DNA of 64,000 nucleotides. Origin: Halarcobacter anaerophilus. GTDB lineage: Bacteria > Campylobacterota > Campylobacteria > Campylobacterales > Arcobacteraceae. Below the pieces are notes generated by a model. That model searched no databases, was not told the origin of the DNA, and saw nothing but the letters and a program-made list of their open reading frames with translations. The position numbers and the translations under genes are program-made. The DNA lies in the NCBI RefSeq assembly GCF_006459125.1, contig NZ_CP041070.1:1984001-2048000 (forward strand). The letters run 5' to 3'. Shown piece after piece: positions 36,527 through 43,488 of this stretch (position 1 is its first letter; every line of letters begins with the position of its first letter).

Positions 36527-38380
36527 ATGTCAATAGTTTCATTGAGCTTACCCAAAAATGTTTTACACAATCAATCACAAGTTTTAGAATTTGATAAGAT
36601 AGCAACTTTTATAGGTGGAAATGGTTCAGGTAAATCTACTATTTTAAAATCTATATTTGATGAAAAACTAAAAGGTTCTACATATCAAGATTATAAGATT
36701 GTATGCTTTTCGTCTGGTCAAAATGAAAGTTATTCTAAAAATTTTGGTGATTACTTAAATGCCGAAAGAGCTAAAAGAAATGCATTAAACTTAGATTGCT
36801 TTTATTATGATAAATTATGGTCTATGTTATTAATTTTTTTAGCTACTACAAGTAAACAAGATGGAGAAGTACGTACTTTTTTAAAACAAAAGAATTATAT
36901 TCATGAAAATGATTTTGAAGAGGATGAATCAACAAAACTTTTATTTGATGTAAAAGTGGATGATACATATGCAAATATAGTACAACAATCACTAGAAGAT
37001 GAAGCTAAAGGTAAAACAGATGTTATTACAAATAAAGCTTACTTTAGAACTTTAGATAATTTTATAACTACATTAGTTAAAGAAGATTATGAATTCAAAG
37101 AGTCATTAAAAGAAGAAATTCAATTAGATCAAAATAAACTTTCTAGGGTTTCATTTGAAATAGATGAAGGTGCATCATTTAATCCAAAGGTTATGTTTTT
37201 TACACAAGCGGCAGATAACAACTATTTTATTGTAAAAGAGAGTTTTGAGCTTATATTTGAAAAAGATGAAAAAATTTTACATTTAAGTGATTTAAGTGAT
37301 GGAGAATATCAACTACTTTTTTTATACTCTTTAATAGATTTATTTGATAGTGAAAATACTCTATTTTTACTAGACGAAGCAGACTCACATCTTCACTATA
37401 AAAATATTGAAAAGTTGTGGCAAGTATATTTTCAAGCACAGGGTTCTATTATCACTACTACGCATTTATTAGATTCAATTGTAAAAGCAGGAACTGAAAG
37501 ATTAAAAATGATTGAAAAAGGGAAAATTGAGCCTTCAACTGATCCTTATAAATTACTCCAGAGATTAGACAGTTTATCTGATTTGACAATGATGCAGCAT
37601 AAAATAGCTTCGATGTATAAAAATGTTGTATTGATGGATAATGCTAATGATTGGGAGATATTTAAATTATTAGTTCAAAGAAAACTATCTGATAAAAAAA
37701 CTGCTAAAGAAATTGAAGATAGTTTATCTGAATTTATTTGTTTAAGTGTTTCTTCTAGCTTTCACACTAAAGGTATGGATATAAATGAGTTTGGTGATAA
37801 TAAAATTAGTTGGGTAAGAAGTTTTGAAAAAGCTTTAAATGATTCTTTTGTTAAAGGTATCCCAACAATGACAAAGCATGCTTTTTTAATATGTGATGGA
37901 GATGAATTTCCAAAAAATCTTATTAAAGATGATAATTACCCTTCTGAAATTGATAGTCTTAACTTTACTAAAAAAGAGAAGAGTAGAAGAAAAAAAGAAA
38001 TGGCTAAGCCTACAAGTAATAATAATTTATCTAAAAGAGTATTGTTAACATGGAAAAGAAGAGAAATAAAGCACTATCTTCTTTCTTTCACTGCTTTATC
38101 AACATCAGCTAAAGTTATAAATGATAAATTACCTTATATGTGTTATCTAAAACAAAATGATGAATGTGATTATATAGACAAAGATAAAAAAATATATAAT
38201 GAACAATTATCAAGAATTCCATCTGATATAGTAAAAAATATTATTGATCCTTATATAAATGTAGATAAAAAAGGTTTTTGTTCTATAGAAGCACAAAAAT
38301 ATATAAATAAAATACCTAAAGAGGAAATTAGTGAAGATATTGTTAATATGTATAATTATTTGGTAGGTGAAAATGAATAA
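36527..38380 (+). CDS. AAA (ABC-type) ATPase with TOPRIM-like C-terminal region, putative defence protein
   Basis: 617 residues. Walker A GGNGSGKST at 30-38, signature-like LSDGEYQLLF (about 260-270), Walker B LFLLDEADSHLH (about 278-289) and H-switch TTTHLL: an SMC/ABC-type ATPase as in OLD, RecF and AriA proteins. The C-terminal third has the layout of a TOPRIM/DUF4435 domain: VVLMDNANDWEIFKLL (about 366), AFLICDGDEFP (about 450) and WKRREIKHYLL (about 508). The usual catalytic Glu positions (VEGxxD and rrEIENYL) are changed to Asp/Asn and Lys, so nuclease activity is doubtful. It overlaps the methylase gene by eight bases. Confidence 0.82.
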   Translation: MSIVSLSLPKNVLHNQSQVLEFDKIATFIGGNGSGKSTILKSIFDEKLKGSTYQDYKIVCFSSGQNESYSKNFGDYLNAERAKRNALNLDCFYYDKLWSMLLIFLATTSKQDGEVRTFLKQKNYIHENDFEEDESTKLLFDVKVDDTYANIVQQSLEDEAKGKTDVITNKAYFRTLDNFITTLVKEDYEFKESLKEEIQLDQNKLSRVSFEIDEGASFNPKVMFFTQAADNNYFIVKESFELIFEKDEKILHLSDLSDGEYQLLFLYSLIDLFDSENTLFLLDEADSHLHYKNIEKLWQVYFQAQGSIITTTHLLDSIVKAGTERLKMIEKGKIEPSTDPYKLLQRLDSLSDLTMMQHKIASMYKNVVLMDNANDWEIFKLLVQRKLSDKKTAKEIEDSLSEFICLSVSSSFHTKGMDINEFGDNKISWVRSFEKALNDSFVKGIPTMTKHAFLICDGDEFPKNLIKDDNYPSEIDSLNFTKKEKSRRKKEMAKPTSNNNLSKRVLLTWKRREIKHYLLSFTALSTSAKVINDKLPYMCYLKQNDECDYIDKDKKIYNEQLSRIPSDIVKNIIDPYINVDKKGFCSIEAQKYINKIPKEEISEDIVNMYNYLVGENE

Positions 38381-40283
38381 TATAGAAATGAAATTAAATA
38401 AATTAATCGATACAATACGAAAAGATACTGGTATTAACAGTATTATGGATGCAATGGAACAATTATCTGCTATTTTACTTTTACAATATTTTTATGAAGT
38501 TGTTTTAAAAGATACACACAAAGAAAAAAATAGAAAAACTTTTAAAAATTTGTTTTATAATTGGGACTATTTTAATAATGCTAAAAATAAAACTGATTTC
38601 TTAAAATTTAAAGATATATTACAAACTCTTTTTATAAATGAAAAAAATAGTTATATAAAAAGTGCCACTTGGGATAAAATCAACTCTATTTTAAATGACA
38701 TACCTTTAAGGATACGTTCTGCTAAGATTTTAGAAATTTTATTATCATATATGGAGGATATTGAGTTTGATGAAAGTCTAGCTGAAGTTTATGATAAATT
38801 ACTTCTAAAAATGACAAATGAATCAATTGCTTCAGGGGCTTTCTATACTCCAAAAGCAATTGTAAATGCTATGGTTAAAGTAATTGAACCATCTTATAGA
38901 GACTTAATCTATGATCCCTCTCTAGGTAGTGGTGGATTTCTTATTGAAGCACAAAAAAGTATATTGGATAATAACTGTCAAAAGTCTATACAAGTTTATG
39001 GACAAGATAAATCTCCTTTTGCAATTTTACTTGCTTCGCTAAATTTACAATTAAATAATATGGATATTAATAATATATTAGAAGGTGATCCATTAGTAGA
39101 CTACAATGATTTACAGTTTGATATTATTTTATCAAATGTACCATTTGGAAAAGTTCCGGATAGTACTAAATATAGAGATAATTATGAAGAACATTTTTTA
39201 AATTTTGAAACAATGTTTTTAAAAGATATAATGAAAAAACTTTCTCTGGGTGGTAAATCAGCAGTAATTGTACCAGAGGGACTTTTATTTAATTCAAATA
39301 ATGAGTTCTTAAACCTTAGATATGAACTTTTAACAAAGTATAATTTACATTCTATAGTAAGTTTACCCTCAGGTATTTTTTTACCTTATTCTGCAATTAA
39401 AGTAAGTATTTTATTCTTTGATAATACCAATATAGGAAATGATATTTGGTTTTATGAAGTTCAAACAGATAAGCCTTTAACTAAATCTAATAAAATTAAA
39501 GAACAAGATTTTAAAGAAGTTATAGAGTTGTTCTCACAAAGAGTAGAGAGTGAAAACTCTTGTTTAGTAAAAAAGGAAGATATTTTAAATAAAAAAGGAT
39601 TAAATCTTACGATAGAACTTCCAAGAAAAGAAGATAAACTTAATAGTTTCAAAACCTCCGATGAAATAAAATATATAAAAGATAAAAAAGAGGATTTTGA
39701 AAAATTAGTGTTTGAGTTTACAAATTTAATTGAAGAAAATAAAAAAGCTAACTTTAGAGAAACAATGCTTTTAAAGGAACTATGTACTATAAAATCAGGT
39801 AAACCGCTAATAAAAAATGAAATAAAAACAAAAGGTAAATACCCTGTATACGGGGGGAATGGCATTATGGGGTATTATGATAAATATACGCATGAAGGTG
39901 ATAATATAATTATAGGTAGAGTTGGGGCTTATTGTGGTAATGTGCACTTCATTAAAGGGCCAGTATGGCTTACAAATAATGCTTTTAGTATAATTATAAA
40001 TTCATCAATTGAAATATATTTACCTTATTTAACTCATACATTAAGAAGCCTAAATTTAAATAAATTGGCAAGAGGTTCTGCACAACCTGCTATATCTTAT
40101 GAAAAGATTAAAGATATAGAGATAAGCCTACCATCTTATGAACAACAAGTAGAATTAGCTAATTGGTTTGATGAAATTCAAAATAAAGAAAAAGAAATAG
40201 AAGAATTACTTAAAATACAAAAAAATAAATTTAGTGAATTAAAAAATTATATGATTATAAGTAAATCTATTGGAAATAATTAA
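38373..40283 (+). CDS. fused type I-like N6-adenine DNA methylase and single-TRD specificity protein (HsdM-HsdS)
   Basis: 636 residues. Helical N-terminus (about 1-140), motif X GAFYTPKAIVNAM (about 155), SAM motif I DPSLGSGGF (about 180), VYGQDKSP as acidic motif, and motif IV NVPFG (about 255; usually NPPF/Y). From about 467 one target-recognition domain begins (ELCTIKSGKPL...YPVYGGNGIMGYY), ending with the coiled-coil LPSYEQQVELANWFDEIQ (about 590-630). ATG at 38373 with AGGTGA upstream overlaps the ATPase stop. No HsdR lies nearby; the partner is the AAA/TOPRIM-like protein. Confidence 0.88.
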   Translation: MNNIEMKLNKLIDTIRKDTGINSIMDAMEQLSAILLLQYFYEVVLKDTHKEKNRKTFKNLFYNWDYFNNAKNKTDFLKFKDILQTLFINEKNSYIKSATWDKINSILNDIPLRIRSAKILEILLSYMEDIEFDESLAEVYDKLLLKMTNESIASGAFYTPKAIVNAMVKVIEPSYRDLIYDPSLGSGGFLIEAQKSILDNNCQKSIQVYGQDKSPFAILLASLNLQLNNMDINNILEGDPLVDYNDLQFDIILSNVPFGKVPDSTKYRDNYEEHFLNFETMFLKDIMKKLSLGGKSAVIVPEGLLFNSNNEFLNLRYELLTKYNLHSIVSLPSGIFLPYSAIKVSILFFDNTNIGNDIWFYEVQTDKPLTKSNKIKEQDFKEVIELFSQRVESENSCLVKKEDILNKKGLNLTIELPRKEDKLNSFKTSDEIKYIKDKKEDFEKLVFEFTNLIEENKKANFRETMLLKELCTIKSGKPLIKNEIKTKGKYPVYGGNGIMGYYDKYTHEGDNIIIGRVGAYCGNVHFIKGPVWLTNNAFSIIINSSIEIYLPYLTHTLRSLNLNKLARGSAQPAISYEKIKDIEISLPSYEQQVELANWFDEIQNKEKEIEELLKIQKNKFSELKNYMIISKSIGNN

Positions 40284-40450: not shown

Positions 40451-40501
40451 GTGGCTCCAGCACCTGGGTTCAAACTAGGGACTAAATGATTAACAGCATC
40501 T
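40451..40501 (-). pseudogene. degenerate 3' half of tRNA-Asn(GTT), possible attachment-site relic
   Basis: Forty-two of 46 bases (40451-40496) match the intact tRNA-Asn genes from the encoded CCA end back through the T arm and anticodon loop; the match ends soon after the anticodon stem. Four substitutions, two of them in the T-arm region, would harm the fold, and the 5' half is absent. A 3' half from anticodon loop to CCA is the typical segment duplicated when an element integrates in a tRNA gene. Confidence 0.75.
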
Positions 40502-43301: not shown

Positions 43302-43376
43302 TGGCTCCGGCACCTGGGTTCGAACCAGGGACCAAATGATTAACAGTCATCTACTCTACCGCTGAGCTATGCCGGA
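43302..43376 (-). tRNA. tRNA-Asn(GTT)
   Basis: 75 bases including an encoded CCA. Acceptor TCCGGCA/TGCCGGA, D arm GCTCAGCGGTAGAG, anticodon loop CTGTTAA, T loop GTTCGAAC. It is the 3' member of an identical tandem pair 37 bases apart, and the match for the degenerate copy at 40451. Confidence 0.96.
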
Positions 43377-43413
43377 AATTAAGAAATAATGTCATTTAAA
43401 AGTGAAGTCAAAG

Positions 43414-43488
43414 TGGCTCCGGCACCTGGGTTCGAACCAGGGACCAAATGATTAACAGTCATCTACTCTACCGCTGAGCTATGCCGGA
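43414..43488 (-). tRNA. tRNA-Asn(GTT), second copy
   Basis: Identical over all 75 bases to the copy at 43302-43376, with encoded CCA and anticodon GTT. Probably one transcript with it, since only 37 bases separate them. Confidence 0.96.

Follow-up and report, generated by a model that had tools for sequence, protein, structure and literature searches.

An OLD/AriA-like ATPase paired with an HsdM-HsdS fusion in Halarcobacter anaerophilus: a candidate guard module related to type I restriction

In Halarcobacter anaerophilus, an OLD/AriA-like ATPase and a fusion of the type I subunits HsdM and HsdS (MS) are encoded by an overlapping gene pair that is real, recurs in a distant bacterium and is uncatalogued, yet follows a familiar theme. 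This ATPase is usually found next to HsdR. The likeliest single reading of the pair is a guard or decoy role, to which we give a probability of about 0.4. On this reading it would be a compact relative of type I restriction systems that serves as a guard (abortive) module in the manner of PARIS or PrrC.

The gene pair and its surroundings

The 3.02-Mb genome lies on a single contig, of which positions 1984001-2048000 form the window, i.e. the 64-kb stretch of DNA analysed here. Both genes are on the plus strand with intact frames in the ORF listing (Table 1), the ATPase comprising 617 aa and MS either 638 aa (GTG start at 38367) or 636 aa (ATG start at 38373). The overlap of eight bases reported in the initial annotation is exact with the ATG start and extends to 14 bases with the upstream GTG. 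Frames as long as these are not expected by chance at the GC content of about 25% found in the pair region. Overlap and orientation suggest that the two genes are co-transcribed; the shared promoter that had been proposed did not stand out, with 42 promoter-like sites where 33.4 ± 6.5 would be expected.

Table 1. Features of the ATPase-MS locus (window coordinates)
Feature	Position	Strand	Support
ATPase, OLD/AriA-like ABC type, gene 1 of the pair	36527..38380	+	AAA_21 above cut-off; AriA and mad3 best PADLOC models
Walker A, GGNGSGKST	36614..36640	+	G30, N32, G33, G35, K36, S37 invariant in 7 members
ABC signature, LSDGE	37292..37306	+	S257, D258, G259, E260 invariant in 7 members
Walker B with catalytic Glu, TLFLLDEAD	37358..37384	+	D283, E284 invariant in 7 members
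TOPRIM-like core, by motif order only: LMDNANDW, CDGD (DxD), RREIKHYLLS	37631..38086	+	
C-terminal tail, near-invariant, EISEDIxNMYN	38324..38380	+	E600-I605, M608, N610 invariant in 7 members
Gene overlap, ATGAATAA, 8 bases	38373..38380	+	Same -8 spacing in the Oceanospirillaceae MAG
MS, HsdM-HsdS fusion with one target recognition domain (TRD)	38373..40283	+	Pfam; MS of the Oceanospirillaceae MAG; full-length 7EEW match
Altered pocket motif, SGAFYTP (active relatives G-E/Q-F-Y/F-T-P)	38832..38852	+	
SAM-binding motif I, retained, DPSLGSGGF	38913..38939	+	
Altered motif IV, SNVPFG (active relatives NPPF/Y)	39132..39149	+	
Single TRD	39759..40205	+	Methylase_S 78.4 bits
tRNA-Asn relic, 3′ 51 nt, att-like scar	40452..40501	-	90% identity, E 4e-14; repeat family D1

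The pair had also been described as flanked by gene debris and a tRNA relic. The first part of this description fell away, as the short flanking ORFs match no Pfam family and decayed coding sequences were rejected as an explanation for them; the second is sound, a partial tRNA-Asn lying downstream of the pair. At 43302-43488 the tRNA-Asn gene occurs in two identical copies 112 bases apart, the relic being a third, partial one. The nadE gene beside the relic is conserved in three relatives, but with different neighbours and with no tRNA at its locus there, and the locus is therefore arranged differently in the genome studied here. The pair is unlikely to have come in on an island between tRNA-Asn and its relic, since it sits outside this interval, which contains nadE; the relic is thus no proof of arrival on a tRNA-targeting element. 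Horizontal acquisition is the simplest reading of the pair.

What a type I operon would further contain, the HsdR translocase/nuclease, does not accompany the pair. Searches by tblastn yielded no hsdR or hsdR relic within the window, and an upstream relic was rejected on the same ground; an EcoAI-type hsdR was not found in the whole genome. The one other type I system of the genome is a complete hsdM-S-R set at 1.23 Mb. Three genes, by eye of the DUF3800, Fic and RhuM-like kinds, lie between hsdS and hsdR of this resident operon (locus L024, 6932-15842).

The ATPase family and its neighbours

The ATPase matches Pfam AAA_21 with 34.3 bits (cut-off 27) and has, besides the ABC motifs of Table 1, an H-switch residue, H313, that is invariant in seven family members. 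Its best PADLOC models are AriA (46.2 bits) and mad3 (46 bits), followed by PtuA and AbiLi, all of them phage-defence ATPases. These models agree with the OLD/AriA-like label of the initial annotation; a role of the pair in defence, also proposed there, is probable. The GajA model reaches 23.4 bits on the ATPase part only, and TIGR04435, a restriction system-associated AAA family ATPase, 28.4 bits against a curated cut-off of 300.

The seven members are those of the window, of a second genome in the same phylum (G159), of an Oceanospirillaceae MAG and of four plasmids, and the window ATPase is 33-61% identical to the other six. The family is rare: it occurs in 2/298 genomes of the phylum, at one further genome-contig locus and on the four plasmids. 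Querying the plasmid collection with a second ATPase of the family gave no more plasmid members, and a scan of viral contigs and phage records for the proteins of the pair gave no match.

All seven loci have type I M/S genes behind the ATPase, and hsdR is the gene directly before it at each of the six loci outside the window. The four plasmids share the order hsdR-ATPase-hsdM-hsdS, with a single base between hsdR and ATPase, and G159 has hsdR-ATPase-hsdS-Fic-hsdM. In the Oceanospirillaceae MAG, a complete M-S-R set with an EcoR124-like R comes first, and a single base separates its hsdR from an ATPase-MS pair whose proteins are 59% (ATPase) and 48% (MS) identical to those of the window and whose genes likewise overlap by eight bases. 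The co-occurrence that the initial annotation called for thus exists, although the exact pair was found at these two loci only. The ATPase had been thought to stand in place of HsdR; since it follows hsdR at all other loci, it is rather an add-on to restriction. Proof from other loci that HsdR is the partner would have counted as a refutation in the initial annotation; this applies in part, HsdR being the usual neighbour there and a possible functional partner. What emerges is a family of ATPases embedded beside hsdR in type I operons carried by plasmids.

The plasmids have nearly identical hsdR genes (97% for L025 against L028), but the L028 ATPase shares only 43% identity with the others, and their HsdS subunits are different. 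The plasmid ATPase thus seems to change more quickly than the genes around it, as though it were swapped or under conflict-driven selection. At L026 (8129-9671 and 16500-19894), genes for a Shedu nuclease and an ATP-binding protein lie downstream of the R-ATPase-M-S operon and XRE and PIN genes upstream, an arrangement that amounts to a layered defence cluster.

The C-terminus of the ATPase had been assigned a TOPRIM layout. Motif order agrees with this, and D371, D457, D459 and E513 are invariant in the seven members; profile comparison remained non-significant, and Asp371 stands in all seven where the TOPRIM Glu is expected. PADLOC defence models leave the C-terminal 250 residues uncovered, the OLD-like TOPRIM family PF20469 has no match in the ATPase, and the seven C-terminal sequences found no meaningful match in Pfam or PADLOC. 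Aligned on its own by hhalign, the C-terminus gave non-significant P values of 0.036 with an AAA-TOPRIM family, 0.19 with DUF4435 fusions and 0.10 with OLD, while the positive controls reached 3e-5 (AAA-TOPRIM vs DUF4435) and 1.6e-6 (AAA-TOPRIM vs OLD). Aligned over its full length with an AAA-TOPRIM protein, the ATPase stays collinear with it across the first strand and the DxD motif, but most of the score is due to the ATPase part. The RREI(K/E)(H/N)YLLS segment is similar to E(I/V)EN(L/Y)F, a segment seen in DUF4435 fusions. A divergent TOPRIM-like domain is a plausible assignment, made after the sequences had been viewed. AlphaFold2 models of the ATPase and MS have low pLDDT (31 and 36). 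The EISEDIxNMYN tail is among the best conserved ATPase segments in all seven members and may perhaps be a docking segment that contacts HsdR or M.

The HsdM-HsdS fusion and the reading of the pair

MS combines the HsdM and HsdS parts of a type I system in one protein, with an N6_Mtase domain (176.6 bits) and one Methylase_S domain (residues 465-613), its TRD being 42-44% identical to TRD1 of a Vibrio campbellii plasmid HsdS. The annotation as a fusion with a single recognition domain is confirmed by these Pfam domains, and the single domain implies that MS would dimerise to read a split palindrome. MS was found in 1/397 genomes of the phylum. In a tree of M domains, which carries a long-branch warning, MS proteins group with the M subunits of the plasmids and G159, apart from the resident HsdM. 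The best solved relative is PDB 7EEW (696 bits, profile positions 6-619 of 638), which we take to be the Vibrio vulnificus M-S fusion of Seo et al. 2022 (cited in PMC12429846) and which is reported to be a dimer. This entry also holds phage T7 Ocr; Ocr is present in entries 7bst and 2y7c too, bound to ordinary type I methylases, and therefore its presence in 7EEW does not in itself point to a decoy.

Whether MS methylates is doubtful. Its SAM motif is kept, but two motifs that a study of PacII names as parts of the catalytic pocket (PMC9613975) both deviate. The G(E/Q)F(Y/F)TP motif reads GAFYTP in the window, GAFHTP in the Oceanospirillaceae MAG and GAYYSP in 7EEW; motif IV, NPP(F/Y) in type I systems, reads NVPF, GIPF and GVPF, respectively. 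Both are altered in 3/3 MS proteins against 0/28 N6_Mtase controls (28/28 with NPP[FYW]), a comparison that favours canonical enzymes, the controls being best-scoring loci of related genomes. The window MS keeps the motif IV Asn (Asn257). Active rRNA N6-adenine methylases can have Asn-X-Pro-aromatic, and the window MS may thus not be dead. The other two MS proteins, which have lost this Asn, are more likely to be catalytically dead. Taken together, MS may be a reader or decoy rather than a methylase.

According to the guard reading, the pair would have arrived by horizontal transfer as a compact offshoot of type I restriction operons. MS, as a dimer in which each chain contributes one recognition domain, would bind DNA or DNA-mimicking antirestriction proteins and would probably methylate poorly or not at all, while the ATPase would hydrolyse ATP and be kept inactive in a physical complex with MS. 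The predicted trigger would be a phage antirestriction protein or unmodified target DNA that engages MS and thereby releases or activates the ATPase, whose TOPRIM-like C-terminal domain would then act as a toxic effector, a putative nuclease, on nucleic acid, stopping the infected cell. The probability of about 0.4 refers to this sequence of events as a whole.

We favour the guard reading because the ATPase is linked to type I M/S genes throughout its family and preceded by hsdR everywhere else, because the pair recurs with its overlap in the Oceanospirillaceae MAG, because the best ATPase models are phage-defence ATPases and because the pocket motifs distinguish MS from all controls. It is further favoured because the 7EEW entry contains T7 Ocr, the trigger of PARIS (PMC9122126, PMC12409363), and because there are published precedents: PrrC and PARIS as guards of restriction (PMC12707154), OLD-ABC ATPases recurring as BREX and RM-like add-ons (PMC12839542), and TgvAB, which sits inside a type I operon and can act alone (PMC11411939). 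Against it stand the C-terminus, with its Glu-to-Asp change and no significant TOPRIM, DUF4435 or OLD match, the Asn kept in the window MS, which makes methylation possible, and the finding of the exact pair at only two loci. That MS is a dead SAM-binding methylase used as bait, with the binding of phage DNA mimics switching on the ATPase-effector in a decoy-and-guard pair, is a tentative proposal that we consider somewhat unlikely.

The retained Asn257 and SAM motif would also suit an MS that is active as an m6A methylase and marks self, with the ATPase as a non-HsdR effector against unmodified DNA, like BREX or MADS. HsdR-less M-S-AAA/TOPRIM operons in two relatives (G003 and G030) and weak similarity to mad3 and MAD2 of MADS lend this some weight, but it has to contend with two altered pocket motifs in every MS protein and with an ATPase family that normally comes with HsdR, and we regard it as unlikely. 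If, instead, the pair were the orphan remainder of an R-ATPase-MS operon, either lacking any defence role itself or retaining MS as a lone regulatory methylase, the hsdR before the ATPase at all other loci, the scarred surroundings with their tRNA relic and the rarity of both genes in the phylum would be accounted for; yet the long frames are intact at their low GC content, ATPase motifs and overlap are all kept and no trace of hsdR is left in the window, which makes this unlikely as well. Borrowing of HsdR in trans from the complete resident system, reminiscent of the MAG pair that follows an hsdR of the different, EcoR124-like family, appears very improbable: the resident HsdM falls into a different, well-separated clade from MS and, to our knowledge, type I subunits do not normally complement one another across families.

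Should the guard reading be true, a worn-out restriction methylase would have become a sensor of phage antirestriction proteins, in bacteria a counterpart to decoy immunity. A role would then suggest itself for 7EEW, a solved protein of unclear function, and the system, with two genes in 3.8 kb, would be small enough for direct testing.

Comparison with known systems

As the initial annotation had stated, no named system consists of just this pair: no catalogued PADLOC or NCBIfam system matches it. A paper on a type I variant of Staphylococcus xylosus describes no such ATPase in that system. MADS (mad1-8) likewise brings ATPases together with an S subunit and a methylase of type I-like character, and its mad3 model scores among the best for the ATPase, but the pair has just two genes and MADS was rejected, MAD2 scoring 55.5 bits against a curated cut-off of 720. 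Operons in G003 (L056, 6025-13256) and G030 (L057, 8179-13472) that join HsdS and an AAA/TOPRIM ATPase to a methylase of roughly 770 aa with an NPPF motif have no HsdR nearby and form a parallel R-less arrangement with a different ATPase family; their ATPases show clear LLVEGK and DxD motifs, and G003 adds a GHKL-like gene.

PARIS (AriA/AriB) combines an OLD-type ABC ATPase with a TOPRIM effector, sometimes fused, and guards restriction, a layout and role that the pair may share. It differs in that the partner here is an HsdM-S fusion, the similarity to AriA amounts to just 46 bits, much as to mad3, and the ATPase lacks a significant DUF4435/TOPRIM match. PrrC (EcoprrI), TgvAB and RloF are similar as accessory defence genes within type I hsd operons (PMC12707154, PMC11411939), but belong to other protein families, and the window pair has no hsdR and a fused M and S. 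For MS alone, a close counterpart is 7EEW, a full-length homologue whose pocket motifs are altered in a like manner and whose entry contains Ocr. Also close are the EcoAI-type (IB) hsdR-ATPase-hsdM-hsdS operons on Vibrio, Salinivibrio and Shewanella plasmids, their ATPases belonging to the same family with 39-42% identity and their M subunits forming one clade with MS; these operons differ in having hsdR, separate M and S subunits and a canonical NPPF motif.
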